From Bradyrhizobium diazoefficiens (GTDB lineage: Bacteria; Pseudomonadota; Alphaproteobacteria; Rhizobiales; Xanthobacteraceae), in the NCBI RefSeq assembly GCF_016616235.1, contig NZ_CP067100.1, positions 3,035,001 to 3,099,000 on the forward strand: a stretch of DNA of 64,000 nt, read 5' to 3'. Both the position numbers and the translations under genes were made by a program. Below, one piece after another: positions 6,032 through 53,698 of the stretch. Below the pieces are notes generated by a model that had not been told where the DNA came from, did no database searches, and was given only the letters and a program-made list of their open reading frames with translations. Position 1 is the first letter of the stretch. Each line of letters opens with the position of its first letter.

Positions 6032-6065
6032 TCCTCAAAGCCTGATCCTTATCAAGCCTGATCCT
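6024..6065 (+). repeat. Three 12-bp direct repeats at the 3' end of the ferredoxin gene
   Basis: AAGCCTGATCCT occurs at 6024-6035, 6038-6049 and 6054-6065. The first copy includes the ferredoxin stop codon and the last ends 3 bp before the stop of the convergent thioesterase gene. It looks like a local slippage expansion in the short convergent spacer. Confidence 0.8.
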
Positions 6066-6067
6066 CA

Positions 6068-6538: not shown

Positions 6539-6711
6539 CGGTTGATCTCCGTCATAGCGCAGCCCGTTACAGCCCAGTTATCCTGACCCGGCAAGTGGGC
6601 GCGGCCGCGGGGCGCTCCCGCTTTTATGCCTTCCCTGATCCATCCCCGTTGGCTAGACAGGCAGGGTCACCTCTGCCCACCGGGCGCCGTCCAACCGATA
6701 AAGATCGATAA

Positions 6712-7749
<1,038 letters not shown>

Positions 7750-7855
7750 CGGCGAGAAGGCGGAAGGCTATGCCCCATGTTTCTGGTGCTGGAAGCGTTC
7801 GCGAAATCGCCGTAGTCTGCGGCCATTCCAGTTGCCGCCTAGCAAGGTGATCATA

Positions 7856-8461
7856 ATGCGGAATCTCTTTTCCAGCTTTCGGCTGCTCGCGCTGCTGGCG
7901 CTAGGCCTTGCGCTGACGTTGGGCGCGGTGAGGCCGGCTGCCGCGCAGGCGCAGCAGCCGACCGCCGCGGGTCTTTGGCAGAAGGTCGAAGACGGCAGGC
8001 CGGTCGGATGGTTTCTCTTCATCGACCACAACGGCATCTTCGAAGGCGTGATCGCAAAAACCTTTCCGCGTCCCGGCGACGATCCGAACGAGGTCTGCGC
8101 CAAATGCACCGACGATCGCAAGAACCAGCCGGTGCTCGGTCTCTCCTTCATCCGCGACATGAAGCGCGATGGCTTGAAATATGAGGGCGGCAACGTGGTC
8201 AATCCGCGCGACGGCAACATCTGGAAGGCCAAGATGACCGTGAGCCCGGATGGCCAGACCCTGACCATGCGCGGCTTTCTCGGCATCTCGCTGTTCGGCA
8301 AGGACGAGACCTGGACGCGCCTGCCCGACGCCAACATCGCCCAGGTCGATCCCGCCATTGTCGCGAAATATCTGCCCGCACAGGCCGCCGCGACCAAGCC
8401 GACCGCGCCCGCGCCTGCGGCGAAGAAGGGCGGCGCGATGATGGCGCCGGCAAGGCAGTAG
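7856..8461 (+). CDS. Secreted DUF2147-family protein
   Basis: A 201-residue protein with an N-terminal signal peptide (basic MRNLFSSFR, a Leu/Ala-rich core, then AAAQA as the cleavage region). The mature part shows the DUF2147 pattern: [17 protein letters not shown] at the start, a C-x2-C pair (about 81-84) and [14 protein letters not shown] near the middle. The tail is Ala/Pro/Lys-rich and low in complexity. DUF2147 proteins are periplasmic with no settled function. The ATG at 7856 has an AAGG ribosome site; an in-frame start at 7739 would overlap the reductase gene and is less likely. Confidence 0.8.
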
Positions 8462-8520
8462 GCTGTCTTCGCATCCCTGAAAGTCCAGGCGGCGTCGGAT
8501 CCAGGGTCGCCCCCTGAACC

Positions 8521-10062
8521 TTACGTCACCGGAGCTGGATTGAACAGCGTGAGGTCGTTGTGGATGCCCCAGCGATCCGACCATGGCTTGGTGCGGCCGC
8601 TGGCGACATCGAGGATCAGGCGAAACAGGTCCCAACCGGTTTCCTCGATCGTCTTCTCGCCGGTGGCGATGCTGCCGGCGTCGAAATCGATCAAATCCTT
8701 CCAGCGGCGGGCAAGCTCGGTGCGGGTCGCGACCTTGATCACCGGTGCGGCTGCGAGGCCGTAAGGCGTGCCGCGGCCGGTGGTGAACACCTGCAGTGTC
8801 ATGCCGGAGGCGAGCTGGAGCGTGCCGCAGATGAAGTCGCTTGCAGGCGTTGCCGCGAACAGCATGCCCTTCTGCGTGGCCTTCTCGCCGGGCGAGAGCA
8901 CGCCGGTAATCGCGCTCGAGCCGGACTTGACGATCGAGCCCAATGACTTCTCGACGATGTTGGCGAGGCCGCCCTTCTTGTTGCCGGGCGTGGTGTTGGC
9001 GCTGCGGTCGGCGCCGCCGCGGGCGAGATAGGAATCGTACCAGGCCATCTCGCGCACCAGCGCGCGGCCGACATCCTCGTTGATGGCGCGGCGGGTGAGG
9101 AGCTGGATGGCGTCGCGCACCTCGGTGACTTCCGAGAACATCACGGTGGCGCCGGCGCGCACGAGGAGATCAGCCGCGAATCCGACGGCGGGGTTGGCGG
9201 TGACGCCGGAGAAGGCGTCGCTGCCGCCGCATTGCAGGCCGACGACGAGATCGGACGCCGGGCAGGTCTCGCGCTTGCGCTGGTTGAGGATTTTAAGCCG
9301 TGCTTCGGCCTGGGTCATGATCGCATCGACGATCGCACCAAAGCCGTCGAAGGCTTCGTCCTGCATGCGGACGATGGCGTCCGTGATGCCTTCCGGCACC
9401 AGCCGCTCCGGCGCGAGCTTCTCGCAACCGAGGCTGATGACAAGAATCTCGCCGCCGAAATTCGGGTTGAGCGCGAGGTTCTGCAGCGTGCGGATCGGCA
9501 CGACCGCATCGGGCGCGGTGATGGCGACGCCGCAGCCATAAGCGTGCGTCAGCGGCACGACGTCGTCGACATTCGGGTACTTCGGCAAGAGCTCGGCGCG
9601 GATGCGCTTGACCGCATATTCCATCGTGCCCTTGACGCATTGCACGGAGGAGGAGATGCCGAGGATGTTCTTGGTGCCGACCGAGCCGTCCGGATTGCGG
9701 AAGCCCTCGAAGGTGAAACCTTCGAGCGGCGGCAGCGGCGCGGGGACGGCGGTCGAGATCTCCAGCTTGTCGAGGGCAGGGGCCTCCGGCATCCGAATGC
9801 GGGCCTCGTCCACCCATTCGCCTGCGAGGATCGGCGAGAGCGCATAGCCGATGATCTCGCCATAGCGGATGATCGGCCGATCTTGCGCGATGTCGACCAG
9901 GGCCGTCTTGTGCCCCTGCGGCACGAAGGCGCGCAGCGTCAGCCCGCTGGCAAAACGGGAGCCGGCGGGGAGCCCGAAATCATTGACCACGATCGCGACA
10001 TTGTCGCGCTCGTTGAGCTTGATGTAGCGGGGCTGCTCTTTCGCTGCGACGTCCTGGTCCAT
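8521..10062 (-). CDS. garD: Galactarate dehydratase (UxaA/GarD family)
   Basis: A 513-residue protein of the altronate/galactarate dehydratase family. An N-terminal SAF-like segment ([13 protein letters not shown]) is followed by the large catalytic domain, with [20 protein letters not shown] and [12 protein letters not shown], typical of the metal-binding core. It should dehydrate galactarate (or a related hexarate) to 5-dehydro-4-deoxyglucarate, which the downstream-pathway enzymes in this locus consume. It is last in the minus-strand gene order, separated from the dehydrogenase gene by about 200 bp holding a palindromic repeat. Altronate as substrate cannot be excluded. Confidence 0.85.
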
Positions 10063-10100
10063 GTGCTGTCCTCAACAACAGAAGAAGCCGTATTCGCGAT

Positions 10101-10232
10101 CACCTCTCCCCAGCGGGGAGAGGTCGATTGCGAAGCAATTCGGGTGACGGGGCTCAGGTCCACGAAGCCGCGTAACCCCTCACCCGGAGCGCATCGCAGA
10201 TGCGATCCGATCTCTCCCAAAGGGAGAGGTGG
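10101..10232. repeat. Palindromic dispersed repeat between garD and the dehydrogenase gene
   Basis: CCTCTCCCcagcGGGGAGAGG forms a hairpin at 10103-10123, and further complementary segments (CGGGTGACGGGG against CCCCTCACCCG, then CTCTCCCaaaGGGAGAG) form a multi-arm structure. This general type of CCTCTCCC/CACCCG element is dispersed in Bradyrhizobium genomes; only one copy was noticed here. Confidence 0.7.
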
Positions 10233-10262
10233 GCACCTGCGCCGCGGCCCGATGATCGCTTA

Positions 10263-11711
10263 TCAACCCGGATAGGTATAGGCCGTCTTCACCGCCGTAT
10301 AGAACTCGCGTGCATAGGAGCCCTGCTCGCGGGCGCCGTAGCTCGAGCCCTTCCGGCCGCCGAACGGCACGTGATAATCGACGCCGGCGGTCGGCAAATT
10401 GACCATCACCATGCCGGACTCGCTGTTGCGCTTGTAGTGCGAGGCGTATTTCAGGCTGGTGGTGCAGATGCCGGAGGCGAGGCCGAACTCGGTGTCGTTC
10501 GAGATCGCCAGCGCTTCCTCGTAGTTCTTGGCGCGGATGACGGCGGCGACGGGACCAAAAATTTCCTCACGCGCGATGCGCATGTTGTTGTTGGCCTCGG
10601 TGAACAGCGCCGGCTGGAGATAATGGCCGGGATTCTCGCGCTTGAGCAGCTCGCCGCCGAAGGCGAGCTTGGCGCCTTCGTCCTGGCCGATCTTGATGTA
10701 GCGCAGGTCCTGATCGAGCTGGTTTTGGTCGACCACGGGTCCGATATGCACGCCGGTCTTGAGGGCGTCGTCGACCGACAGGCCGTTGAGGCGCTCGGCC
10801 ATCGCGGCGACGAAGCGGTCATGAATGCCTTCGGTGACGATCAGGCGCGAGGACGCCGTGCAGCGCTGACCGGTCGAGAAATAGGCACCGTTGACGGCGA
10901 CCTCGACAGCGGTCTTCAGATCGGCGTCGTCGAGCACGACCAGCGGGTTTTTGCCGCCCATCTCGAGCTGGAATTTCTTCATGTTGCTCGACATGACGCA
11001 GGCCTGCGCGATCTTGCGGCCGGTCTGCACCGAGCCGGTGAAGGAGATCGCAGCGACATCTGGATGGTCGAGCAGGGTCTGCCCGACCACGGAACCGGAG
11101 CCGACCACGAGATTGAACACGCCGGCGGGAAGGCCGGAGCGAGTGATGATCTCAGTGAGAGCGTGTGCCGAGCCCGGCACCAGCTCGGCGGGCTTGAACA
11201 CCACGGTATTGCCGTAGCAGAGCGCGGGGGCGATCTTCCAGGCCGGAATCGCGATCGGGAAATTCCAGGGCGTGATCATGCCGACGACGCCCATCGGCTC
11301 GCGGGTGATCTCGACCTCGAGGCCGGGCCGCACGGAGGCGCCCTTTTCGCCGATCAGGCGCAGCGCTTCGCCGGCGAAGAACGCAAAGATCTGGCCGGCG
11401 CGGGCGACCTCGCCGATGCCCTCGGGAAGGGTCTTGCCTTCCTCACGCGCGAGCAGGCGGCCGAGCTCTTCCTTGCGGGCGAGGATTTCGAGAGAGATCT
11501 TGTTCAGCGCGTCGTAGCGCACTTGCGGCGTCGACTGCGCCCAGGCAGGGAAGGCGGCTTTCGCGGCGGCGATCGCTTTCTCGGTCTGCGCCTTGTCGGC
11601 CTTGGCGTATTCGCCGACGAGATCGTTGGTGTTGGAGGGGTTGATGTTCCTGGTGACGCCGGAGCCGTCGACCCATTCGCCGCCGATGTAGTTCTTCAGG
11701 ATTGCAGTCAT
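10263..11711 (-). CDS. 2-Oxoglutarate semialdehyde dehydrogenase (aldehyde dehydrogenase family)
   Basis: The 482-residue length is normal for NAD(P)-dependent aldehyde dehydrogenases. Visible motifs are MITPWNFPIAIPAWK (cofactor site), ELGG-type EMGGKNPLVVLDDADL, and the catalytic cysteine in STGQRCTASSR at about residue 285. In this neighbourhood it is expected to oxidise 2-oxoglutarate semialdehyde to 2-oxoglutarate, the last step of hexarate breakdown. It starts 26 bp after the stop of the glucarate dehydratase gene and is surely co-transcribed with it. The substrate is inferred from context. Confidence 0.85.
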   Translation of the reverse strand: MTAILKNYIGGEWVDGSGVTRNINPSNTNDLVGEYAKADKAQTEKAIAAAKAAFPAWAQSTPQVRYDALNKISLEILARKEELGRLLAREEGKTLPEGIGEVARAGQIFAFFAGEALRLIGEKGASVRPGLEVEITREPMGVVGMITPWNFPIAIPAWKIAPALCYGNTVVFKPAELVPGSAHALTEIITRSGLPAGVFNLVVGSGSVVGQTLLDHPDVAAISFTGSVQTGRKIAQACVMSSNMKKFQLEMGGKNPLVVLDDADLKTAVEVAVNGAYFSTGQRCTASSRLIVTEGIHDRFVAAMAERLNGLSVDDALKTGVHIGPVVDQNQLDQDLRYIKIGQDEGAKLAFGGELLKRENPGHYLQPALFTEANNNMRIAREEIFGPVAAVIRAKNYEEALAISNDTEFGLASGICTTSLKYASHYKRNSESGMVMVNLPTAGVDYHVPFGGRKGSSYGAREQGSYAREFYTAVKTAYTYPG

Positions 11712-39711: not shown

Positions 39712-41595
39712 ATGTCGATCAGCAGCATCAATTATTCCTCGTCGGTTCTCGGCTCGCAGATCCGCAACATCAATCAGCAACTCACCGACCTATCGACGCA
39801 GCTCTCGACCGGCAAGCTGTCGCAGAACTATTCCGGCATGGGCACCAACGAGGGCTTTGCGATCGCCGGACGCTCGCAGCTCTCCAACATCGCCGCCTAT
39901 ACCGACACGATCACCAACGTCAACGTCAACATCAACCTCGCCAACACTGCGCTCCAATCGCTGACGACGATCCGCAACACGGTGCAGACCGGCTCCGCCA
40001 ACACTGCGCAGGACCTCAACGTCAACGGCCAGACGGTCGCGCAGAACACCGCCGCCGCGCAGTTCGGCTCGATGGTCGGCGTTCTCAACACGCAGTCGGG
40101 AAACCGTTATCTGTTCTCCGGAACCGCCGTCAACACGCAGTCGGTCGCTGATGCCGGCGACATCATCAACGGCACCACGACGCAGGCGGGCTTCAAGACC
40201 GTCCTGGCGGAGCGCCAGGCCGCCGATCTCGGCGCCAGCGGCAAGGGCCGCCTGGTGCAGACGCAGCCGACGGCGAGCTCGGTGCAGGTGGCGGAGGACG
40301 CCGCGGGCTCGCCGTTCGGGCTCAAGATCAAGGCGGTGTCCTCGACGCTGACGGGCGCGACCGTTACGGGGCCGAGCGGCTCGCCGGTGTCGTTCTCGGT
40401 CGATCTCAACGGCGTCAATCCGAACAACGGCGACAAGCTGAGCGTTCAGTTCACGCTGCCGGACGGCACGACCGAGCAGATCGACCTGACCGCGTCGACA
40501 GCGACGCCGACGCCGCTCGGCAGCTTTGCGATCGATGCCAGCGTTCCGGTCAATCCGAACAATACTGCGGCGAATCTCAACACCGCGCTGAACACCGCGA
40601 TCACGAAGCTCGCCAACACCTCGCTGGTGGCGGCGTCCGCGATCGTCGCCGGCGACAATTTCTTCAATACTGCAAGCTCGGCGACCGGCACGCCGGTCAA
40701 CAACCAGGCGGCGACGCCCGTGCCGATCACCGGAGCGACGGCGCTGTCCGGCGCCAGCCCCTCGGATTCGATCTCGCCGGGCTTCGTTGCCGGTGACACC
40801 ATCACCGTCAACGGCACCACGCTCACCTTCGTCAGCTCGGGCGCGACCGGCAACCAGCTCAATGTCGGCGACAGCATCCAGGCCCTGCTCGGCAAGATCG
40901 ACCAGATCACGGGGACCTCGAAGCCTTCGACCGTTCATGGCGGTGTGATCACGATCAATACCGACGACGCGGCAAGCCTCAACATTACGAGCTCGAATAC
41001 GGGTGCGCTCGGCTCGCTTGGTTTCGGCTCGACACCTGTCACCGCGACCCAGCCGCCGCTGCGCGTCGGCTCGTCACCGGCGAGCTCGGCGACGACGCTG
41101 GTGAACGGTTCGGCCACCACCGTGAAATGGTACCTCGGCAATGACGGGCCCGGCTCGCCGCGCTCCACCGCGATGGCGCGAGTCGACGATTCCGTCACGG
41201 TGCAATATGGCGCACAGGCCGACGAGGACGCGATCCGCCGGCAGTTGCAGGCGATCGCGGTGTTCGGGACGTTCTCGACCTCGCCGGGCGGGCAATATTC
41301 GGGCGGGCAGGTCTCGGCGCTGAGCCTGCGGGTGACGCAGGCACTGACCCAGCAGCCGGGCCAGCAGCGTATCGAGGACATTCAGACCGACATCGCGATG
41401 GCCCAGAACACGATGAAGGACGCGTCCACGCGCCAGACCCAGGCCAAGGCGCAGCTTCAGTCTATCATCGACCAGGCGGAATCGGCCTCGCCGGACCAGG
41501 TGGCGAGCGAGATCCTGTCGCTCCAGAACGCGCTCCAGGCATCCTACCAGACGACTTCGAAGCTCGCCCAGCTCTCGCTCGTCAAGTTCCTGTAA
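39712..41595 (+). CDS. flgL: Flagellar hook-filament junction protein FlgL, extended
   Basis: A 627-residue protein of the flagellin/FlgL superfamily, about twice the enterobacterial FlgL length. The N-terminal LTDLSTQLSTGKLSQNYSG and a C-terminal ASYQTTSKLAQLSLVKFL bracket a variable middle. Residues about 360-443 (GDTITVNGTTLTFVSSGA to the LGFGS end) match the IN-type module seen in FlgE and the flagellins. It begins 21 bp after flgK and closes the hook-junction operon. Confidence 0.9.
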   Translation: MSISSINYSSSVLGSQIRNINQQLTDLSTQLSTGKLSQNYSGMGTNEGFAIAGRSQLSNIAAYTDTITNVNVNINLANTALQSLTTIRNTVQTGSANTAQDLNVNGQTVAQNTAAAQFGSMVGVLNTQSGNRYLFSGTAVNTQSVADAGDIINGTTTQAGFKTVLAERQAADLGASGKGRLVQTQPTASSVQVAEDAAGSPFGLKIKAVSSTLTGATVTGPSGSPVSFSVDLNGVNPNNGDKLSVQFTLPDGTTEQIDLTASTATPTPLGSFAIDASVPVNPNNTAANLNTALNTAITKLANTSLVAASAIVAGDNFFNTASSATGTPVNNQAATPVPITGATALSGASPSDSISPGFVAGDTITVNGTTLTFVSSGATGNQLNVGDSIQALLGKIDQITGTSKPSTVHGGVITINTDDAASLNITSSNTGALGSLGFGSTPVTATQPPLRVGSSPASSATTLVNGSATTVKWYLGNDGPGSPRSTAMARVDDSVTVQYGAQADEDAIRRQLQAIAVFGTFSTSPGGQYSGGQVSALSLRVTQALTQQPGQQRIEDIQTDIAMAQNTMKDASTRQTQAKAQLQSIIDQAESASPDQVASEILSLQNALQASYQTTSKLAQLSLVKFL

Positions 41596-41666: not shown

Positions 41667-42449
41667 ATGTCGGACACGATGCGACTGGTGGTGGCGACGC
41701 CGTGCTTCGGAGGGCAGGTGTCGAGCATCTATGCGAGCTCGATTTTCGCGCTCCAGCGCGCCGTGCACGGCATGTCCAATCTCGAGCTCAAGGTGCACAT
41801 GCGTGACGGCGACGCGCTGATCACGCGGGCGCGGGCCAATCTGGCCGCGATGTTCCTGGACGATTCCAAGGCAACCCATTTTCTGTTCATCGATGCCGAC
41901 ATCGGCTTCAGGCCGGAGCAGGTGTTTCGGCTGATCGAATGCGGAGCGGACGTCGTCGCCGGCTGCTATCCGATCAAGCGGGTCAACTGGGACAAGGCGA
42001 GGCGCGCGATCGACGCCCGCCGCACTGATGTGGGCGCGGCCTCGCTCGACTACGTACTCGAGGTCGAGGACCCCGACCGTATCGTCGTGGTCAACGGCTT
42101 TACGCGCGTGCGCTACGCCGGCACCGGCTTCCTGATGATCCGCCGCCACGTGCTGGAGACGATGTGCCGCCATCCGGACTATGCCAAGCTGCAATTCTTC
42201 CGCGAGCATTCACATGACACGCTGACGGCGAGCCAGAACCGGTTCGCGCTGTTCGAATGCATGATCGATCCGGCGACCGGCACCTATCTCTCCGAGGACT
42301 TCGCCTTCTGCAAGCGCTGGACCGATATCGGCGGCGAGATCTGGGCCGACATCCAGAGCTCGCTCGACCATGTCGGGCCGTCCGTATTCCACGGCGACAT
42401 CGCCTCGCAATTCGCAGCCGCGCCCGCGGCGGCAGCCGAGGCGGCGTGA
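41667..42449 (+). CDS. GT-A-fold glycosyltransferase-like protein
   Basis: A 260-residue protein. It opens RLVVATPCFGGQVSSIYASS, a nucleotide-sugar-binding-like strand and loop, and carries FLFIDADIGF with a DxD-type DAD at residues 76-78, the metal and nucleotide-sugar site of GT-A enzymes. GTGFLMIRRHVLE and YLSEDFAFCKRW (an acidic ED near the acceptor site) support the fold. It has no membrane segment. Located between flgL and the flagellins behind a CtrA-type box, it could glycosylate flagellin or another surface molecule, but no acceptor is proven. Confidence 0.7.
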   Translation: MSDTMRLVVATPCFGGQVSSIYASSIFALQRAVHGMSNLELKVHMRDGDALITRARANLAAMFLDDSKATHFLFIDADIGFRPEQVFRLIECGADVVAGCYPIKRVNWDKARRAIDARRTDVGAASLDYVLEVEDPDRIVVVNGFTRVRYAGTGFLMIRRHVLETMCRHPDYAKLQFFREHSHDTLTASQNRFALFECMIDPATGTYLSEDFAFCKRWTDIGGEIWADIQSSLDHVGPSVFHGDIASQFAAAPAAAAEAA

Positions 42450-42747
42450 GCGTTCCGGGATGAGCGCCGGCGCATCCCCTCTGCCAGTCCTGGAGCGCAC
42501 ATCTGGTAGCGGCTCGCGCGCAGCGTCTGGCATTGCGCGCTCCGGTGCGGAGCCAGCGGTCGTGGGTGCTATCGAGGCCAGCCTCGCGCAAGGCCGCTGC
42601 GCTCTTCTGCAAATCGAAGCCTGGTCGCCGGACACGGCGCAGGCGCAACGCAATGTGCAGCATGCTCGATCGCGTCGCCCATGTCCTGAAGATCGAGCTG
42701 CTGCTTGACCGTACCGCGCCATCCCGGCGTAGCCTGATAGGTTTGAG
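42450..42747. other. Gap between glycosyltransferase and ATP-grasp genes
   Basis: 298 bp with GC and codon texture like coding DNA but no start-to-stop reading frame with recognisable family features on either strand. It could be the remnant of a gene or an N-terminal part lost from the ATP-grasp protein. No clear promoter or terminator was seen. Confidence 0.4.
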
Positions 42748-43983
42748 ATGTTGCATCCGCTTGCCGCGCCGAACTATGCCGACCGCATCGGCTTTGCGCA
42801 TTTGACGCGCCAGGCCTTCGAGGGTGTCGATCTGCACCCATTGCGCGAGCGGCTGTTGGCGCGGATCGCCGAGGGAACGGCGCTGGCGGGCGAGGGGCTG
42901 GACTTGTCCTTGATCGCTCAGCTGATGGGCGAGAAGGAAGCCGGCCTCGTGATCCAGTCCGAGGTGCTCTCCTTCCATCAGCTGTTTCGCACGCCCACTG
43001 CGGCACCGAAGCCGGGCCTGCGCGTGCTTGCGCTTGCAGCCGACATCGACATGGGCGGCAACACGCCGATTGAATTTCTGCTCGAAGGCTCCGATATCGA
43101 GCTCCTGACACTCTATGTGACCAAGGCGACAGGCTTGCCGGAAGCATTGCCTGATCACGACGTTGCCATCGTGGTCGCATCCGATTCCGAGGAATGCCGC
43201 GACGCGCTTGCGTTGATCGCAAAGGCGGCGCCGCGCTGGCCGCGGCCGCTGCTCAACCGCCCCGAGCTGATCGGCAATCTCGACCGCGACAAGCTGTACC
43301 GGCTGCTGGCTGATATCCCCGGTCTCGACATCCCCGTGACCGCCCACGCGACGCGCGCGCAACTGACGGCTCTGTCGGAGGGGCGGATCGCTTGTGCGGA
43401 GATCACGGGCGAATTGCACTTTCCGATGATCGTGCGGCCGCGCGGCACGCATGCCGGCGTCGGGCTTGCGAAGATCGACGATGCGGCAGCGCTCGCGGTC
43501 TATCTTGCCGAGCGGCAGGAGCAGGACTTCTTCGTCGCGCGTTTCGTCGATTATGCGAGCCCGGACGGGCTCTATCGCAAGATCCGCCTCACCATGGTCG
43601 ACGGCAAACCCTATGCCTGCCACATGGCGATCGCCGATCGCTGGGACATCTGGTACCTCAACGCTTACATGGCGTTCAGCGAAGAGAAGCGCGCGGAAGA
43701 AGCCGTCTTCATGCAAGACTTCGACCATGTGTTCGCCGCGCGCCACAAGACTGCACTCGACGAGATGAGCAGGCGCGTCGGTCTCGATTATTTCATCGTC
43801 GATTGCGCCGAGAACCAGAACGGCGAGCTGCTGGTGTTCGAGGCCGACAACACCGCCGTCGTGCACAACATGGATTCGCCGGTGGTGTTTCCGTACAAGC
43901 CGCCGCAGATGCGCAAGATCTTTGCCGCGTTCACTTCGATGCTGTCGCGGCATGCAAAGGCGGGTGAGGGGAGCGCAGAATGA
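42748..43983 (+). CDS. ATP-grasp-like ligase of unknown substrate
   Basis: A 411-residue protein. Residues about 225-400 look like an ATP-grasp catalytic half: FPMIVRPRGTHAGVGL (nucleotide-binding strand with basic residue and flexible loop), FFVARFVDY (adenine-contact), and a late LLVFEADNTAVVHNMD (acidic metal-site residues). The first ~200 residues have a Rossmann-like stretch (GLRVLALAADIDMGGNTPIEF). RimK-like proteins join carboxylates to amines using ATP. Its stop overlaps the start of the decarboxylase gene by 4 bp (ATGA), so the two are translationally coupled. The substrate is unknown. Confidence 0.65.
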   Translation: MLHPLAAPNYADRIGFAHLTRQAFEGVDLHPLRERLLARIAEGTALAGEGLDLSLIAQLMGEKEAGLVIQSEVLSFHQLFRTPTAAPKPGLRVLALAADIDMGGNTPIEFLLEGSDIELLTLYVTKATGLPEALPDHDVAIVVASDSEECRDALALIAKAAPRWPRPLLNRPELIGNLDRDKLYRLLADIPGLDIPVTAHATRAQLTALSEGRIACAEITGELHFPMIVRPRGTHAGVGLAKIDDAAALAVYLAERQEQDFFVARFVDYASPDGLYRKIRLTMVDGKPYACHMAIADRWDIWYLNAYMAFSEEKRAEEAVFMQDFDHVFAARHKTALDEMSRRVGLDYFIVDCAENQNGELLVFEADNTAVVHNMDSPVVFPYKPPQMRKIFAAFTSMLSRHAKAGEGSAE

Positions 43984-45476
43984 ACGAGATCATCCGCAAC
44001 ACACAAGACTCCGTCACGGGCGCCTCGCTCGATCCGCAGGACTGGAGCGAGTTTCGCGCGCTCGCCCACCGCATGCTAGACGAGACGATCGACGGCATCG
44101 CCAACATTCGTGCGCGTCCGGTGTGGCAGCCGATCCCCAATGAGGTCCGCGCCGCATTGAAGAGCGATGTGCCGCGTGAAGCAAGCGATCTTGCCGAGGT
44201 CTATCGCCAATTCGCCGAACATGTCGCTCCTTATGCGACCGGAAATGTCCATCCCGGCTTCATGGGCTGGGTGCATGGCGGCGGCACCGCGGTCGGCATG
44301 CTCGCGGAGATGCTCGCGGCCGGCCTCAACGCCAATCTCGGCGGGCGCGATCACATGCCGATCGAGGTCGAGCGCCAGATCGTCGACTGGATGCGCCGCC
44401 TGTTCGCCTTGCCGGAAAGTGCGAGCGGCATCTTCGTCACGGGCACGTCGATGGCAAACCTGATGGCGGTGCTGGTGGCGCGCACGGCTGCGCTCGGCAC
44501 GCAGGCGCGGCAGCACGGCATCGGCAACGATGGCGCGTTGCTCACGGCCTATACGTCGCGAGCCGCGCATGGCTGCATATCGCGCGCGATGGACATTGCC
44601 GGATTTGGCACCGATGCGCTGCGCAAGGTCGGGATGGATACCGATCATCGCATCGATGTCGAAGCGCTGCGGGCGCAGATCGCGACCGATCGCGAGGTCG
44701 GTTTCAAGCCATTCCTCGTCGTCGCCTCCGCCGGCACGGTCGATATCGGCGCGATCGACGATCTCAAGGCGATCGCGCGGCTGTGCCGGGACGAAGGCAT
44801 CTGGTTTCACGTCGATGGCGCCTTCGGTGCGCTCGCGATCCTCTCGCCCGAGCTGGCGCCGCTGCTTGGCGGCATTGAGCTTGCCGATTCCATTGCGCTC
44901 GACTTCCACAAATGGGGGCAGGTGCCCTATGACGCCGGCTTCCTTCTGGTGCGCGATGGCGAGCAGCATCGCCAGGCCTTTGCGCAACCGGCGGCGTATC
45001 TCAGCCGCGAGTCGAGGGGACTTGCAGCGGGCGCAATCTGGCCCTGCGATCTCGGCCCCGATCTGTCGCGCGGCTTCCGGGCGCTGAAGACCTGGTTCAC
45101 GCTGAAGACGTTCGGCACCGATCACCTTGGCGCCGTGATCGCCCGCAGCTGCGCGCTGGCAAAATATCTGGAGGCGCGCGTTCTCGCCGAGCCGCGGCTG
45201 GAGCTGCTGGCGCCGGTGAACCTCAACATCGTCTGCTTCCGCTACCGCGCGGATGACGCGGTCAATCGCGAGATCGTCGCCGATGTCCATGAGTTGGGCA
45301 TTGCGGCACCGTCGAGCACGACGCTGAACGGCAGGTTTGCGATCCGCGCTGCCATCGTCAATCATCGCACCGAAGCGACGGACATCGATGCGCTGGTCGC
45401 TGCCGTGCTGGACTTTGGTGCACGGCGCAGCGGCGGCGTGATCGAGGTCGAGGCGCCGCCGCTCGCGGCGCAGTGA
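43980..45476 (+). CDS. PLP-dependent decarboxylase (group II-like)
   Basis: A 498-residue fold-type I PLP enzyme. Visible residues include WFHVDGAFGA with the PLP-ring Asp279, and SIALDFHKWGQVPYDAG with the PLP lysine K311. NVHPGFMGWVHGGGTAVGML and FVTGTSMANLMAVLVAR fit the aromatic-amino-acid, glutamate and diaminobutyrate decarboxylase group. The reaction would yield an amine and CO2. Four-base overlap with the ATP-grasp gene implies a two-step pathway: an amine and an ATP-dependent ligation. The substrate is unknown. Confidence 0.82.
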   Translation: MNEIIRNTQDSVTGASLDPQDWSEFRALAHRMLDETIDGIANIRARPVWQPIPNEVRAALKSDVPREASDLAEVYRQFAEHVAPYATGNVHPGFMGWVHGGGTAVGMLAEMLAAGLNANLGGRDHMPIEVERQIVDWMRRLFALPESASGIFVTGTSMANLMAVLVARTAALGTQARQHGIGNDGALLTAYTSRAAHGCISRAMDIAGFGTDALRKVGMDTDHRIDVEALRAQIATDREVGFKPFLVVASAGTVDIGAIDDLKAIARLCRDEGIWFHVDGAFGALAILSPELAPLLGGIELADSIALDFHKWGQVPYDAGFLLVRDGEQHRQAFAQPAAYLSRESRGLAAGAIWPCDLGPDLSRGFRALKTWFTLKTFGTDHLGAVIARSCALAKYLEARVLAEPRLELLAPVNLNIVCFRYRADDAVNREIVADVHELGIAAPSSTTLNGRFAIRAAIVNHRTEATDIDALVAAVLDFGARRSGGVIEVEAPPLAAQ

Positions 45477-45489
45477 CATCAAGGCGGCT

Positions 45490-45532
45490 CAAAGCACAAC
45501 GCCCCGGACCTGGTCCGGGGCGTTGTGCTTTG
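45490..45532. terminator. Bidirectional terminator with a 21-bp perfect stem
   Basis: CAAAGCACAACGCCCCGGACC (45490-45510; quoted in two parts as CAAAGCACAACG and CCCCGGACC) pairs with its exact complement ending at 45532, with essentially no spacer. It lies between the convergent decarboxylase and flbT stops. The outer A/T pairs give a T-containing 3' side in both directions. Confidence 0.75.
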
Positions 45533-45547
45533 AGACGTGCGAAGCGC

Positions 45548-45973
45548 TCAGGCGGCGGAGCTGACGTCGCCTTTGGGATGGGCGGCCTCGAACTGCTCGC
45601 GCAGCTTGTCTTCATAAGCGATCAGCTTGCGGGCCTCCTTGAGGGCCCGGTAGAGGTCGCCGCTCATGATGTTGTTGTTGATGCCCTCGATGATCGGCCA
45701 GGAGCTCGGCACCGCGGTAACGATGTCGCGGACGAGGTTGAAATAAGTGCCGTGCTGGGTCTGCGGATCCGGCGAGATGTACATCAGCTGGACCGCCAGA
45801 TAGACGAGCTTGGCCGGCGTATCGGCTGTCTCGGGCGTGAGGATGTCGCGCTCGCGCAGGATCGGCACGTTGTCGCCGTCGATCAGAAGGCGGGCGCGCT
45901 GGTCCGTGTTGGTGATCACGGAGTTACCGACGATGATGCGCTCGTGCGGTTTGAGTTCGACCTTGAGAGCCAT
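45548..45973 (-). CDS. flbT: Flagellin mRNA regulator FlbT
   Basis: A 141-residue FlbT. It opens LKVELKPHERIIVGNSVITN and has the conserved LVYLAVQLMYISPD and NNIMSGDLYRALKEARKLI segments. In Caulobacter, FlbT binds the 5' leader of flagellin mRNA and lowers its stability until the hook is complete. Here it lies next to the first flagellin gene and points away from it. A GG-N10-GC sigma54-type site precedes it. Confidence 0.95.
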   Translation of the reverse strand: MALKVELKPHERIIVGNSVITNTDQRARLLIDGDNVPILRERDILTPETADTPAKLVYLAVQLMYISPDPQTQHGTYFNLVRDIVTAVPSSWPIIEGINNNIMSGDLYRALKEARKLIAYEDKLREQFEAAHPKGDVSSAA

Positions 45974-46296: not shown

Positions 46297-48579
46297 ATGT
46301 CCGGTATCGTTCTCTCCTCCTCGGTTCGTCAGAACCTGCTCTCCCTCCAGTCCACCGCCGATCTGCTCGCCACCACCCAGTCGCGTCTGTCGACCGGCAA
46401 GAAGGTGAACTCGGCGCTCGACAACCCCACCAACTTCTTCACCGCACAGTCGCTCGACAACCGCGCCAGCGACATCAACAACCTGCTCGATGGCATCGCC
46501 AACGGCGTGCAGGTGCTGCAGGCCGCCAACACCGGCATCACCTCGCTGCAGAAGCTGCTCGACTCTGCGAAGTCGATCGCCAACCAGGCGCTGCAGACCA
46601 CGGTCGGTTATTCGACCAAGTCGAACGTCTCGACCACGATCGCGGGCGCGACCTCGACCGACCTGCGCGGCACCACGACCTATTCCAGCGCGACCGCGCA
46701 ATCCAACGTGCTGTTCTCCGGCGCGGCCGGCGGCGCCACGGCGGCGACCGGCGCCACCACCCTCGGAGGCACCATCGGCAGTGTGACTGGCCCCACAGTC
46801 GTGAAGGACAACCAGGGCACCCCGGCGAACATCACCGCCTCGACGCTGCTCTATGGCGACGGCGCAGCGCTGGCCACCGCAGGTCTGAGCACCGGGGCTG
46901 CAACTCAGTTCACCGACGGCACGAGCTTCACGGTCAACGGCCATTCCATCACCTTCAAGTCGGGCGCTGCCCCGGCGGCGGCAAGTGCTCCGGCCGGTTA
47001 CGGCGTCAGCGGCAACATCGCCACTGATGGCAGTGGCAACTCGATCGTCTATCTCGGTGCGAGCGCGACCAACTCGACCGCGACCGTCGGCGACGTTCTC
47101 TCCGCGATCGATCTCGCCAGCGGGGTCAAGAATGCTGTTGTCGCTTCGGGTGCTGCAACGATCACCACGAACACCAGCCAGACCCCGTCGTCGATCACCG
47201 GTGGTCAGATCACGCTCGAGACCTCGACAGGTGCTGACCTCTCCGTCGTCGGCAAGGCCGACCTCTTGAAGACCCTTGGTCTGACCACTGCGACCGGCTC
47301 CGGCAACGCGACCATCACCGCGTCCCGTACAACCGCCACGGGCAGCCTTGCCTCACTGATCAGCGACGGCTCAACGCTGAACGTCAACGGCAAGACCATC
47401 ACGTTCAAGAACGGTGGCACGCCGGCTGCTGCGAACGTGCCGACCGGGTCCGGCGTCACCGGCAACATCGTCACCGATGGCAGCGGCAATTCGACCGTCT
47501 ACCTGAACAAGGGTACCGTCGCCGACATTCTGACCGCGGTCGATCTCGCCACTGGGGTGCAGACCGCGACCATCGCTTCGGGTGCTGCGACCCCGGCCAC
47601 AGCCAGCGGCCAGACCGCGTCCTCGATCGTGGCTGGCGCGCTGCACATCTCGACTGGTGCGAACGCGGATCTGTCGATCACCGGCACGGGCAACGCGCTG
47701 TCGGCGCTCGGTCTGACCGGCTCGACCGGCACCGGCACCGCCTTCACGGCGAGCCGCAGCGCGGCCTCCGGCGGCGTCTCGGGCAAGACCTTGACCTTCA
47801 CCTCCTTCAACGGCGGCACGGCGGTCAACGTCACCTTCGGCGACGGCACCGGCGGCACGGTCAAGACGCTCGATCAGCTCAACACGGCGCTGCAGGCGAA
47901 CAACCTGTCGGCCACGATCGATGCCAACGGCCTGCTCACGGTATCTGCGACCAACGACTATGCGTCCTCGACGCTCGGCTCGGCCGCCGCCGGCGGCACG
48001 ATCGGCGGCACGATTACCTCGGCCTTGACCTGGTCAAATGCCACCGCGCCGGTTGCTGACGCGGTTGCCCAGGCCACTCGTACCAACCTGGTGTCTCAGT
48101 ACAACAACATCCTGACCCAGATCGACACGACCTCGCTGGATGCTTCGTTCAACGGCGTCAACCTGCTCAACGGCGATCAGCTCAAGCTGGTGTTCGACGA
48201 GACCGGCAAGTCGAGCCTGAACATCACCGGCGTGACCTTCAACTCGAAGGGTCTCGGTCTGGCCGGCCTGGTGCAGGGCACCGACTTCATCGACAACTCC
48301 GCCACCAACAAGGTGTTGACGAATCTGAACAAGGCCTCGAGCACGCTGCGTTCGGAAGCTTCGACCCTTGGTTCGAACCTCTCGGTCGTGCAGGTGCGTC
48401 AGGACTTCAACAAGAACCTGATCAACGTGCTGCAGACCGGTTCGTCGAACCTGACGCTGGCCGACACCAACGAGGAAGCGGCCAACAGCCAGGCGCTGTC
48501 GACCCGCCAGTCCATCGCGGTCTCCGCGCTCTCGCTGGCCAACCAGTCGCAGCAGAGCGTGCTCCAGCTGCTCCGCTAA
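46297..48579 (+). CDS. fliC: Giant flagellin 1
   Basis: A 760-residue flagellin. The N-terminal D0/D1 helix (SVRQNLLSLQSTADLLATTQ, then RLSTGKKVNSALDNP) and the C-terminal partner (ALSTRQSIAVSALSLANQSQ and the final QQSVLQLLR) are canonical. The central ~500 residues are Ser/Thr/Gly/Ala-rich and contain three IN-type modules starting near 209, 361 and 498 (patterns xxVNGhsITFk and KTLTFTSFNGG). It builds the filament of the thick flagellum outside the cell. RBS is AGAAAGG. It is first of three tandem paralogues. Confidence 0.95.
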   Translation: MSGIVLSSSVRQNLLSLQSTADLLATTQSRLSTGKKVNSALDNPTNFFTAQSLDNRASDINNLLDGIANGVQVLQAANTGITSLQKLLDSAKSIANQALQTTVGYSTKSNVSTTIAGATSTDLRGTTTYSSATAQSNVLFSGAAGGATAATGATTLGGTIGSVTGPTVVKDNQGTPANITASTLLYGDGAALATAGLSTGAATQFTDGTSFTVNGHSITFKSGAAPAAASAPAGYGVSGNIATDGSGNSIVYLGASATNSTATVGDVLSAIDLASGVKNAVVASGAATITTNTSQTPSSITGGQITLETSTGADLSVVGKADLLKTLGLTTATGSGNATITASRTTATGSLASLISDGSTLNVNGKTITFKNGGTPAAANVPTGSGVTGNIVTDGSGNSTVYLNKGTVADILTAVDLATGVQTATIASGAATPATASGQTASSIVAGALHISTGANADLSITGTGNALSALGLTGSTGTGTAFTASRSAASGGVSGKTLTFTSFNGGTAVNVTFGDGTGGTVKTLDQLNTALQANNLSATIDANGLLTVSATNDYASSTLGSAAAGGTIGGTITSALTWSNATAPVADAVAQATRTNLVSQYNNILTQIDTTSLDASFNGVNLLNGDQLKLVFDETGKSSLNITGVTFNSKGLGLAGLVQGTDFIDNSATNKVLTNLNKASSTLRSEASTLGSNLSVVQVRQDFNKNLINVLQTGSSNLTLADTNEEAANSQALSTRQSIAVSALSLANQSQQSVLQLLR

Positions 48580-48902: not shown

Positions 48903-51212
48903 ATGTCCGGTATCGTTCTCTCTGCGTCGGTTCGCCAGAACCTGCTCTCTCTCCAGTCCACCGCCGACCTGCTCGCCACCACCCAGTCGCGCCTGTCGAC
49001 CGGCAAGAAGGTGAACTCGGCGCTCGACAACCCCACCAACTTCTTCACGGCGCAGTCGCTCGACAACCGTGCCAGCGACATCAACAACCTGCTCGATGGG
49101 ATCGCCAACGGCGTGCAGGTGCTGCAGGCCGCCAACACCGGCATCACCTCGCTGTCGAAGCTGCTGGACTCCGCGAAGTCGATCGCCAACCAGGCGCTGC
49201 AGACCACGGTCGGTTACTCCAGCAAGTCGAACGTCTCGACCACGATCGCCGGTGCGACGGCCTCCGACCTGCGCGGCACCACGACCTACACCAGCGCGAC
49301 CGCGCAATCCAACGTGCTGTTCTCCGGTGCTGCCGGCGGCGTCACCGCGGCGACGGGCTCGACCACGCTCGGCGGTACGGCCGCTTCTTATGTCGGGACC
49401 GCGGCGGTCAATGACAACCAGGGCACCCCGGCGGCGATCACCACCTCGACCCTGATCTATGGTGACGGCGCTGCCCCAGCCACCGCAGGTCTGAGCACGG
49501 GCGCAACCTCGCTCTTCACCGACGGAACGACGCTCACGGTCGACGGCCACTCGATCACGTTCAAGGCCGGCGCAGCGCCGGGCGTGACCGGATCACCCAA
49601 TTCCTTGCCGGCTGGTTACGGCGTGGATGGCGGCGGTACCGGCAGCATTGCCACCGACGGCAATGGCAATTCGATCGTCTATCTCGGTGCAAGCGCGACC
49701 AACTCGACGGCGACGGTCGGCGACGTCCTGAAGGCGGTTGACCTTGCGGCGGGCACCCGCGGTGCCACGATCGCGGCCGGCGTTGCCACGATCAATGCCA
49801 ACAACACCAGCCAGACCGCAGCTTCCATCACCGCCGGCAAGATCACGCTGAACAGCTCGACTGGCGCCGATCTCAGCGTCGTCGGCAAGGCTGACCTGTT
49901 GAAGGCGCTCGGTCTGACCACTGCGACCGGCTCCGGCAACACGACCATCACGGCGGCCCGGACCACGGCCACCGGCAGCCTTGGTTCGCTGATCAGCGAC
50001 GGATCGACCCTGAACGTCAATGGCAAGACCATTACGTTCAAGAACGGCGGCACGCCGGCCGCGGCCAATGTGCCTACGGGATCTGGCGTCACCGGCAACG
50101 TCGTCACCGACGGCAACGGCAACTCGATCGTCTACCTGAACAAGGGCACCGTGGCCGACATCCTGAGCGCGGTTGATCTCGCCACCGGCGTGCAGACCGC
50201 AACCATTGCTTCGGGTGCTGCGACCCTGTCGACGGCCAGCGGCCAGACCGCGTCCTCGCTGGTTGCCGGTTCGCTGCACATTTCGACCGGCGCGAACTCG
50301 GATCTGTCGATCACCGGTTCGGGCAACGCATTGTCCGTGCTCGGCCTCACCGGCTCGACCGGCACCGGCACCGCGTTCTCGGCGAGCCGCTCCGCGTCGG
50401 CCGGCGGTGTTTCGGGCAAGACCTTGACCTTTGCCTCCTTCAATGGCGGTACGGCGGTCAACGTCACCTTCGGCGACGGCACCGGCGGCACGGTCAAGAC
50501 GCTGGATCAGCTCAACACCGCGCTTCAGGCCAACAACCTGACGGCCACGATCGACGCTAACGGCCTGCTCACGGTGTCTGCGATCAACGACTTTGCGTCC
50601 TCGACGATCGGATCCGCCATCGCGGGCGGTGCGATCGGCGGCACGATCACGACGGCCCTGACCTGGACCAACGCGACCACGCCGACTGTGGATGCCGTCG
50701 CTCAGGCCACACGCTCCAACCTGGTTGCGCAGTACAACAACATCTTGACGCAGATCGACACGACCTCGGTCGACTCGTCGTTCAACGGCGTCAACCTGCT
50801 CAACGGCGATCAGCTCAAGCTGGTGTTCGACGAGACCGCCAAGTCGAGCCTGAGCATCACAGGTGTGACCTTCAACTCGAAGGGGCTCGGTCTGGCGTCG
50901 CTGGTCCAGGGCACCGACTTCATCGACAATTCGGCCACCAACCGCGTGCTCACCAGCCTCAATTCGGCCTCGAGCACGCTGCGCTCGCAAGCCTCGACGC
51001 TGGGTTCGAACCTCTCGGTCGTGCAGGTGCGTCAGGATTTCAACAAGAACCTGATCAACGTGCTGCAGACCGGCTCGTCCAACCTGACGCTGGCCGACAC
51101 CAACGAGGAAGCGGCCAACAGCCAGGCGCTGTCGACCCGCCAGTCGATCGCAGTTTCGGCGCTGTCGCTGGCCAACACGTCGCAGCAGAGCGTGCTCCAG
51201 CTGCTCCGCTAA
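48903..51212 (+). CDS. fliC: Giant flagellin 2
   Basis: A 769-residue flagellin, the longest of the three. N-terminal ~130 residues and C-terminal ~150 residues are almost identical to flagellin 1, and the central IN-type modules start near 209, 370 and 506. Differences concentrate in the middle, with a small insertion around residues 225-245 (a SLPAGYGVDGGGTG stretch). RBS is GAAGGG. It has its own promoter region and terminator. Confidence 0.95.
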   Translation: MSGIVLSASVRQNLLSLQSTADLLATTQSRLSTGKKVNSALDNPTNFFTAQSLDNRASDINNLLDGIANGVQVLQAANTGITSLSKLLDSAKSIANQALQTTVGYSSKSNVSTTIAGATASDLRGTTTYTSATAQSNVLFSGAAGGVTAATGSTTLGGTAASYVGTAAVNDNQGTPAAITTSTLIYGDGAAPATAGLSTGATSLFTDGTTLTVDGHSITFKAGAAPGVTGSPNSLPAGYGVDGGGTGSIATDGNGNSIVYLGASATNSTATVGDVLKAVDLAAGTRGATIAAGVATINANNTSQTAASITAGKITLNSSTGADLSVVGKADLLKALGLTTATGSGNTTITAARTTATGSLGSLISDGSTLNVNGKTITFKNGGTPAAANVPTGSGVTGNVVTDGNGNSIVYLNKGTVADILSAVDLATGVQTATIASGAATLSTASGQTASSLVAGSLHISTGANSDLSITGSGNALSVLGLTGSTGTGTAFSASRSASAGGVSGKTLTFASFNGGTAVNVTFGDGTGGTVKTLDQLNTALQANNLTATIDANGLLTVSAINDFASSTIGSAIAGGAIGGTITTALTWTNATTPTVDAVAQATRSNLVAQYNNILTQIDTTSVDSSFNGVNLLNGDQLKLVFDETAKSSLSITGVTFNSKGLGLASLVQGTDFIDNSATNRVLTSLNSASSTLRSQASTLGSNLSVVQVRQDFNKNLINVLQTGSSNLTLADTNEEAANSQALSTRQSIAVSALSLANTSQQSVLQLLR

Positions 51213-51457: not shown

Positions 51458-53698
51458 ATGTCCAACATCGTTCTCTCGGCGTCAGTTCGCCAGAACCTGT
51501 TGTCACTGCAGTCGACGGCCGACCTGCTGTCCACGACGCAGCAGCGCCTTTCGACCGGGAAAAAGGTCAACACCGCGCTCGACAACCCGACCAACTTCTT
51601 CACCGCACAGGGGCTGGACAACCGGGCGAGCGACATCAGCAATCTCCTCGACGGCATCAACAACGGTGTGCAGGTGCTGCAGGCCGCCAACACCGGCATC
51701 ACCTCGCTGCAAAAGCTGATTGACAGCGCCAAGTCGATCGCCAACCAGGCGCTCCAGACCACGGTCGGCTATTCGACCAAGTCGAACATCTCGACCACGA
51801 TCCCCGGCGCGACGCCGGCCGATCTGCGCGGCACGACGAGCTATACCTACGCAACGGCAACCGGCAATGTCGTCACCAACGGTACCGCCGGCGGCACCAC
51901 ACCGGCCACCACCGCGACCACGCTCGGCGGCATCTCGCAGTCGCTGGTCGGTTCGGCTGCTCCTGATGGTGCCGGCACCGCAGCAAGCTTGGCGCCGGGT
52001 CTCACCCTGCTCGGCACGCCCAGCGCGACTACCATCGCCACGAACGGCGCTCCGTCGGATGGCGATGTGCTCGTCGTCGACGGCAAGACCATCACCTTCA
52101 GGGCCGGCGCTGCGCCTGCGGTCGCCAACGTTCCTGCCGGCTCCGGCAAGAACAACAACATCGTCACCGACGGCAATGGCAACTCGACGGTTTACCTCGG
52201 CACAAACGCCGCTCCGGCCGCAACCGTCCAGGATGTGACGGATGCGATCGACCTTGCGAGTGGTGTGCAAAAGGCTGCCATCACGGGCGGTACCGCGACG
52301 CTGTCGAACTCGTCCGGCGCCAACGCTTCCATCGCTTCTGGTGTTCTCACCCTCACCACTGGTACGGGCTCCGACCTCAGCATCACCGGCAAGGCCGACT
52401 TCCTCAAGGCGCTCGGTCTGACCACCGCGACCGGCTCCGGCAATGTCAATGTGACCAAAGCGCGCCTGACGACCTCGGCGACGCTGGGCACCCTCGTTCA
52501 GGACGGTTCCACGCTCAATGTGGATGGCAAAACCGTCACGTTCAAAAACGCGGCTGCGCCTGCTGCCGCTCCGACGGGGTCGACCAAGATCGGCAACATC
52601 GTCACGGACAACAATGGCAACTCCATTGTCTATCTCCAGGGCGCAACCGTTCAGGATTCGCTGAATGCGATCGACCTGGCATCGGGAGCCGGCACCGTCA
52701 GCGGCGCCGCCGTGGTTGCGGCAAGCGGTTCGTCGCTGTCCTCGGTCGTGAACGGCGCTCTCAAGCTCAGCACCGGCACCACGGCGGATCTGTCGATCAC
52801 CGGAACGGGCAACGCGCTGTCCTCGTTCGGTCTGACCGGTCCCACCGGCACCGGCACGGCCTTCACCGCGGGACGCGCGCCGGGAGCAGGCAGCATCTCG
52901 GGCAAGACCTTGACGTTTACCTCCTTCAACGGCGGCACGCCGGTCAACGTCACCTTCGGTGACGGCACCAACGGCACCGTCAAGACGCTCGACCAGCTGA
53001 ACTCGCAGCTCCAGGCGAACCACCTCACGGCGACGATCGACGCCAACGGCGTGCTCACGATCACCACCGTCAACGAATACGCCTCTTCGACGCTCGGCTC
53101 GGTGACCGCCGGCGGCGTCGTCGGTGGCACGATCACCGCCACGGTTGCCTTCACGACGGCCCAGCCGCCGATCCAGGATCCGGTCGCGCAGACGGCGCGC
53201 TCGAACCTCGTCAACCAGTTCAACAATATCCTGGCGCAGATCGACACGACGTCGCAGGACGCCTCCTTCAACGGGGTGAACCTGCTCAACGGCGATACGC
53301 TGAAGTTGATCTTTAACGAGACCGGCAGCTCGACGCTCGGCATCAATGGCGTGGTGTTCAACGCGGCGGGCCTTGGCCTTTCCAACCTCGTCAACGGCGT
53401 CGATTTCATCGACAACGGTGCCACCAACAAGGTGCTCGCGAGCCTCAACGCGGCCTCGAGCACGCTGCGCTCGGAAGGTTCTGCGCTCGGCTCCAATCTC
53501 TCGATCGTGCAGGTGCGTCAGGACTTCTCCAAGAACCTGATCAACGTGCTGCAGACCGGCTCGTCCAACCTGACGCTGGCCGACACCAACGAGGAAGCGG
53601 CCAACAGCCAGGCGCTGTCGACCCGCCAGTCGATCGCGGTCTCGGCGCTGTCGCTGGCCAACCAGTCGCAGCAGAGCGTGCTCCAGCTGCTCCGCTAG
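51458..53698 (+). CDS. fliC: Giant flagellin 3
   Basis: A 746-residue flagellin, the most diverged of the three. The N-terminal helix (SVRQNLLSLQSTADLLSTTQ, then RLSTGKKVNTALDNP) and the C-terminal region are conserved, while residues about 130-500 differ strongly from flagellins 1 and 2. IN-type modules begin near 204, 353 and 482. RBS is AAAAGGAAG. Unlike the others it is preceded by overlapping perfect CtrA-type boxes, so its expression may differ. Confidence 0.95.
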   Translation: MSNIVLSASVRQNLLSLQSTADLLSTTQQRLSTGKKVNTALDNPTNFFTAQGLDNRASDISNLLDGINNGVQVLQAANTGITSLQKLIDSAKSIANQALQTTVGYSTKSNISTTIPGATPADLRGTTSYTYATATGNVVTNGTAGGTTPATTATTLGGISQSLVGSAAPDGAGTAASLAPGLTLLGTPSATTIATNGAPSDGDVLVVDGKTITFRAGAAPAVANVPAGSGKNNNIVTDGNGNSTVYLGTNAAPAATVQDVTDAIDLASGVQKAAITGGTATLSNSSGANASIASGVLTLTTGTGSDLSITGKADFLKALGLTTATGSGNVNVTKARLTTSATLGTLVQDGSTLNVDGKTVTFKNAAAPAAAPTGSTKIGNIVTDNNGNSIVYLQGATVQDSLNAIDLASGAGTVSGAAVVAASGSSLSSVVNGALKLSTGTTADLSITGTGNALSSFGLTGPTGTGTAFTAGRAPGAGSISGKTLTFTSFNGGTPVNVTFGDGTNGTVKTLDQLNSQLQANHLTATIDANGVLTITTVNEYASSTLGSVTAGGVVGGTITATVAFTTAQPPIQDPVAQTARSNLVNQFNNILAQIDTTSQDASFNGVNLLNGDTLKLIFNETGSSTLGINGVVFNAAGLGLSNLVNGVDFIDNGATNKVLASLNAASSTLRSEGSALGSNLSIVQVRQDFSKNLINVLQTGSSNLTLADTNEEAANSQALSTRQSIAVSALSLANQSQQSVLQLLR

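Follow-up and report, generated by a model that had tools for sequence, protein, structure and literature searches.

At the flagellar locus of Bradyrhizobium diazoefficiens we examined a pair of genes lying in a stretch of 64,000 nucleotides (NZ_CP067100.1, positions 3,035,001 to 3,099,000; hereafter the window, to which coordinates refer unless another locus is named). The first encodes an ATP-grasp ligase-like protein of 411 amino acids (aa) (42748..43983, + strand; open reading frame (ORF) and predicted fold) and the second a group II pyridoxal 5'-phosphate (PLP)-dependent decarboxylase of 498 aa (43980..45476, +; PF00282). The stop codon of the former and the start codon of the latter share an ATGA overlap (43980..43983, +), which may couple their translation. 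Preceding the pair are the remains of a decayed gene for a further PLP enzyme, here termed X (42460..42718, +; ~540 aa in relatives), recognized by blastn against X of four other loci (L018, L036, L044 and L046), and a gene for a 260-aa glycosyltransferase (GT)-like protein, possibly of GT-A type (41667..42449, +; ORF, with D76-x-D78 and E210-D211 invariant among nine aligned sequences). The initial annotation had described two ORFs overlapping by 4 bp between the hook-junction genes and flbT, and this arrangement is borne out, with flgL and the GT-like gene before the pair and flbT after it.

The full gene order reads flgE-flgK-flgL, GT-like gene, X fragments, ATP-grasp gene, decarboxylase gene, hairpin, flbT on the minus strand, and three giant flagellin genes. 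The hook-filament junction gene flgL, located 5' of the cassette (39712..41595, +), was named, as were flgE and flgK, by reading and by their conservation together in relatives, not by family search, while the flagellin regulator gene flbT (45548..45973, -) was identified through PF07378 and NCBIfam PRK12791. Between the decarboxylase gene and flbT, a long hairpin (45484..45538, strand unassigned; fold -48.7 kcal/mol, z -7.2) probably marks the end of both converging transcripts; it is missing from the list of a terminator scan that requires a T-run. Giant flagellin 1 (46297..48579, +) comprises 760 aa with two DUF1522 stretches, as identified from its ORF and a family search covering this gene only, and two more giant flagellin genes were identified as ORFs (48903-51212 and 51458-53698).

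Conservation within Bradyrhizobium and loss of enzyme X

Conservation was assessed across 80 named loci from the closest relatives, either Bradyrhizobium or placed there by tree. Pattern matching gave 297 stretches, 171 of them relatives, and the named loci, being the best of these 171, lean toward close kin; some locus (L) and genome (G) handles used here denote the same genomes (e.g. L115 and G030). In all 80 loci the ATP-grasp and decarboxylase genes stand in this order and overlap by 4 bp (78 ATGA, 2 GTGA), and a chance overlap was rejected on this basis. Flagellar genes, defined throughout as tblastn matches to FlgE, FlgK, FlgL, FlbT or the flagellins of the window, are likewise present in the stretch in 80 of 80 loci, and flbT, on the opposite strand, is the next gene match in 77. 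Of the three exceptions, L067 shows nothing past the decarboxylase gene, and L102 and L114 proceed straight to flagellin.

X precedes the ATP-grasp gene in 76 of the 80 loci, and the window retains only fragments, corresponding to collinear bits of its start, middle and C-terminus separated by two internal deletions. As judged from these comparisons, the pair in the window is the remnant of a larger cassette, from which X has been lost at least seven times. The predicted model of X adopts a class V aminotransferase/NifS-like fold and X possesses a PLP lysine, the two features that place it among enzymes of this type; PDB sequence searches with X returned no significant match. Several relatives of X carry the UniRef name Bll5850. 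Despite the loss of X, the pair is kept under purifying selection: the ratio of nonsynonymous to synonymous substitution rates (omega) in the window is 0.10 for the ATP-grasp gene and 0.125 for the decarboxylase gene, with medians of 0.143 and 0.129, respectively, in the 79 rows with X. No decay of the pair following loss of X was seen; in the other X-less rows, omega for the ATP-grasp gene rises to 0.249, within the range of X-bearing rows (0.058-0.307). Such selection also makes a neutral and recent insertion, the unrelated origin that had been considered for the pair, unlikely. A separate arrangement was observed at L166 (8434-11819), where X neighbours a nucleotidyltransferase gene and an ATP-grasp gene of the D-Ala ligase type and may thus be put to another use; profile comparison of our ATP-grasp alignment with this Ddl-like neighbour gave nothing useful.

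Presence of the pair was further surveyed in 36 Bradyrhizobium genomes (the source genome and 35 others; a 34%-identity decarboxylase match in G019 was left out). FlgK with at least 61% identity occurs in 23 of these, 22 of which possess both the ATP-grasp and decarboxylase genes, while the twenty-third, G035, has a lone GT-like gene in the slot 3' of flgL and, elsewhere, an incomplete decarboxylase at the end of a contig. Among the remaining 13 genomes, with FlgK identities of 51-54%, no ATP-grasp match and no close decarboxylase were detected, and the split probably represents a difference between two lineages, so that its Fisher value is an overstatement. Six of these 13 cassette-less genomes were inspected at the locus: in five, flgL is directly followed by flbT (L168-L171 and L174), and in the sixth (G031) the slot holds a tetratricopeptide repeat (TPR)-GT9, FlmG-like, gene. 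The pair does not track giant flagellins, a link that the initial annotation had proposed to test; from a pattern-based count of flagellin sizes (none found for L149), a cassette-less genome has a 752-aa flagellin, and flagellins of cassette-bearing genomes range from 283 to 812 aa.

Two further observations were made among these loci. A stretch of FlgE (~residues 223-485) matches within flgL at 59-73% identity in L017, L021, L035 and 14 of the 80 named loci (L037, L038, L040-L043, L045, L047, L049, L056, L067, L068, L111 and L113), as if a domain were common to hook and junction proteins. Also, L036, from a record titled Frankia sp. RB7, contains a typical Bradyrhizobium flagellar locus and lies inside Bradyrhizobium on the tree, and is probably a mislabelled or mixed assembly.

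Enzyme assignments

The decarboxylase is firmly assigned by sequence to the group II PLP type, in keeping with its first reading. Its match to PF00282 scores 225.9 bits against a cut-off of 27, and K311, H197, D279 and Y340, which we take to be the PLP lysine, the stacking histidine, the aspartate and the loop tyrosine, respectively, are identical in 24 of 24 aligned decarboxylases (a 198-aa fragment from G035 was left out). The nearest solved relatives are DOPA decarboxylase, an unnamed PLP decarboxylase (4obu) and a desferrioxamine-pathway decarboxylase (E 3e-60 to 3e-55), and the source genome contains one decarboxylase match at E 1e-20 or better. Although catalytic residues align with those of the L-2,4-diaminobutyrate decarboxylase RhbB and of aromatic amino-acid decarboxylases, the protein falls far below the NCBIfam equivalog cut-off for RhbB (187.5 vs 900 bits), as it does for PanP (135.1 vs 606.1 bits).

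The 411-aa protein exceeds no family cut-off in Pfam or NCBIfam (best PF07478, E 0.034, 14.1 bits vs 24), including those of Ddl, RimK and ATP-grasp_4, and is therefore filed under the ATP-grasp superfamily only. Membership is supported by a predicted model of only moderate quality, in which the ATP-grasp fold anticipated from the initial sequence reading spans residues 88-411. The mostly helical N-terminal ~88 residues are an extra part that, together with the absence of a family match, distinguishes this protein from RimK, LysX/ArgX and D-Ala ligases. Residues D352, E365, R230, R280 and H373 are identical in 33 of 33 cassette-type relatives and D367 in 29 of 33, counts that leave out two TPR-type rows (the unlabelled outgroup in the tree); by analogy with D-Ala ligase, the acidic residues D352, E365 and D367, close to the C-terminus, presumably bind metal. 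In the fold comparison, scores are equally high for inositol kinases and D-Ala ligases, and the fold therefore does not pick a substrate. Elsewhere, long ATP-grasp-like genes were found in divergently oriented pairs at L028 (8186-11645) and L029 (8438-11849), and the one scanned bears TPRs.

Of the 80 named loci, 74 carry the GT-like gene at full length, five carry a fragment and one gives no match. No Pfam or NCBIfam family matches the window protein; among the nine GT-like sequences aligned (the L176 row was left out), three show weak matches to Anp1 (best E 0.023) and one to GT2, and a PDB sequence search with this alignment yielded no significant match. Flagellin genes and a neighbouring glycosyltransferase, the location expected of a flagellin-modification island, are found together at this locus, with the GT assignment itself being weak. 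A tandem array of four GT-like genes also lies immediately ahead of flagellin genes in another family (G045; L175:6294-9498). Also observed, ~100 kb before the window in the same genome (L180 and L181, 2.915-2.952 Mb), was a surface-sugar cluster with two NeuB genes and, by eye, cytidylyltransferase-, flippase- and asparagine synthase-like genes, which could supply nonulosonic acid to flagella or envelope.

These assignments bear on one explanation in which no glycan takes part, the ATP-grasp enzyme acting as RimK does and ligating the decarboxylase-made amine directly to flagellin carboxylates. We regard this as highly unlikely: the fold on which the likeness to RimK would draw is silent on substrate, and the GT-like neighbour in 74 named loci would be left unexplained.

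Occurrence of the cassette in other genera

Of 23 full-length cassette-type ATP-grasp matches in other genera, 18 were fetched with their surroundings. Two gene fusions, each in a distant genome and from a single assembly, were identified, joining the decarboxylase and ATP-grasp proteins in one 884-aa frame (G594) and X and the ATP-grasp protein in one 953-aa frame (G373); together they indicate that the three enzymes very probably act in one pathway. Of the two-step pathway originally read from the pair, joint action thus stands, upheld by the first of these fusions and by the invariant 4-bp overlap, and the notion of a two-gene system gives way to a larger set, with X and a full-length GT-like gene in nearly all named loci (76 and 74 of 80).

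Six of the 18 loci, from other genera of the family, are flagellar, with X and the ATP-grasp gene in G370, the ATP-grasp gene in G438, and the ATP-grasp and decarboxylase genes in G458, G485, G369 and G407. All three genes are also flagellar-adjacent in the more distant G577. Flagellar siting of the cassette or its parts therefore extends to five other genera, in gene orders that differ outside Bradyrhizobium, and the setting first described for the pair holds beyond the 80 named loci. The pair is not, as had been supposed, always beside flgL or flbT, since 12 of the 18 loci have no match to FlgE, FlgK, FlgL, FlbT or flagellin. X was found in 10 of 297 genomes in an order-level search and 5 of 385 in a class-level search; among 10 X-matching genomes outside Bradyrhizobium, a decarboxylase lies close by in six and a flagellar locus in one (G577). 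On both the ATP-grasp tree and the decarboxylase tree (G035 fragment left out), the flagellar label requires three changes, a pattern that fits an old flagellar association followed by two moves away, or three separate gains.

Upon inspection of the 12 non-flagellar family loci (18-19 kb fetched), methyl-accepting chemotaxis protein (MCP) chemoreceptor genes were identified in nine, eight by motif and one by Pfam (L151), as compared to 3 of 25 comparison loci, a set that was already available and not randomly drawn, and for which only the motif was used. The corresponding Fisher p of 0.0003 assumes independent loci, an assumption that is not valid because the nine loci come from three genera. 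This siting beside flagellar genes in some genera and chemoreceptor genes in others would be explained if the pair made a small amide (a signal, compatible solute or chemoeffector) for motile cells, linked to motility and not bound to the filament. We consider this somewhat unlikely: the motif detected no MCP gene in the 15 flagellar loci and none in the five further non-flagellar loci with trios, the ATP-grasp gene stands alone in two of the three MCP genera (G335/G377 and G384/G343/G408), and MCP genes are numerous in such bacteria.

Three of the family loci have neither flagellar nor MCP genes (L138, L140 and L143), and X, the ATP-grasp gene and the decarboxylase gene occur together at a range of non-flagellar sites (L134, L135, L137, where X is cut by the contig end, L138, L140-L142, L145, L156 and L163). 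At L132, decarboxylase, X, an HpnW-type oxidoreductase and a PhnX phosphonoacetaldehyde hydrolase follow one another on one strand (5829-10825), the latter two above curated cut-offs, providing the sole hint at an aminophosphonate substrate. Such loci would fit a metabolic operon for amine or aminophosphonate metabolism, unrelated to motility, that settled in a permissive flgL-flbT gap. A search of the window and 71 loci (72 sources), however, found phosphonate neighbours at L132 only, and given the three label changes on each tree, settling by fliC or flbT would have had to happen, or be kept, in several lineages; we judge this origin to be decidedly unlikely.

A candidate filament-modification pathway and its relation to known systems

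We place at about even the chance that the cassette is instead a filament-modification pathway, our preferred reading, in which an amine is made and then amide-linked. The tie to flagella is good without being exclusive. In favour of this reading stand the flagellar position of all 80 named loci and its recurrence in other genera, the distribution of the pair among the 36 Bradyrhizobium genomes, the FlmG-like or GT-like genes found in the slot or before flagellins in other genomes, the two gene fusions, and the precedents of Clostridioides difficile and Shewanella, whose flagellin-modification loci need an ATP-grasp gene for complete modification. Under this proposal, the PLP decarboxylase would turn an amino acid or analogue into an amine, and the ATP-grasp enzyme would activate a carboxylate as an acyl phosphate for amide formation with this amine. 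A sugar part would be added by the upstream GT-like enzyme and, in some relatives, by FlmG-like enzymes, and the product would decorate flagellin or the junction proteins encoded next door, with X providing an accessory and dispensable PLP step through which the product is varied. Sequence or models show the set of genes, their overlap and fusions, the folds, conserved residues of catalytic type, purifying selection and the recurring flagellar position. That an amine is made and then attached is plausible; we infer which substrates are used, that an amide forms, in what order the steps run and that flagellin is the target. A bolder extension, which we regard as unlikely, is that an amide-capped glycan or peptide adorns the flagellar filaments of Alphaproteobacteria. 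Its terminal taurine-, aminophosphonate- or beta-alanine-like amine would be produced locally by a decarboxylase dedicated to it and linked on by a novel family of ATP-grasp enzymes, X being switchable and repeatedly dropped to change the surface.

Several observations weigh against a role in filament modification. The flagellar association within Bradyrhizobium largely reflects co-inheritance, and beyond the 12 non-flagellar loci of the family described above, trios or partial trios at L132, L134, L135, L137 and L163 are also non-flagellar. Six of the 80 named loci retain the pair with a disrupted or absent GT-like gene. This gene was not seen beside the pair outside Bradyrhizobium among the loci fetched, and is of weak family assignment, its window product matching no Pfam or NCBIfam family. 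Nor do the present data contain a sign that these flagellins are modified. As background, B. diazoefficiens, a soybean symbiont, is described as swimming by means of a thick subpolar flagellum of this type (PMC4823718, in part), and possible glycosylation of the subpolar flagellum is suggested in one review (PMC8429497, in part). Among open-licence literature on Bradyrhizobium flagellin glycosylation, and on flagellin with ATP-grasp or decarboxylase, no paper on the cassette was apparent from titles and the openings of abstracts.

Comparison with known systems reveals partial parallels. The Clostridioides difficile type B locus (CDR20291_0241-0247) similarly places an ATP-grasp carboxylate-amine ligase and glycosyltransferases beside fliC; according to the sections consulted, a mutant in the ATP-grasp gene CDR20291_0245 is without the terminal sulfonated peptidylamido sugar (PMC5207246), which holds taurine, alanine and glycine (PMC5207245). 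Unlike that locus, for which the same portions of both papers name no PLP decarboxylase, the cassette includes one. A further difference, which also counts against the proposed role, is that the C. difficile ATP-grasp protein is described there as Pfam 13535, a family unmatched by the window protein and absent from 13 ATP-grasp members tested (E up to 5). In Shewanella oneidensis, the flagellin-modification operon sfmABCDE ends in an ATP-grasp gene of similar length (412 aa), deletion of which (sfmE) shifts flagellin mass, whereas its partners, in the excerpts of the source, are PseI-like, thiamine pyrophosphate-enzyme, reductase and methyltransferase genes, with no decarboxylase or X (PMC3765264). 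TPR-glycosyltransferases with a make-up like that of Caulobacter FlmG are present in G031, between flgL and fliC, and also in G015 and G032, where they fall in the cassette region; Caulobacter FlmG belongs to a pseudaminic acid pathway, for which no ATP-grasp/decarboxylase module is named in the corresponding part of PMC7591256. Set beside these systems, the cassette unites three enzyme types (ATP-grasp, group II decarboxylase and class V-type PLP) in a single module, parts of which are fused in nature, and offers two or three concrete genes and a testable chemistry for the question of subpolar-flagellin modification.
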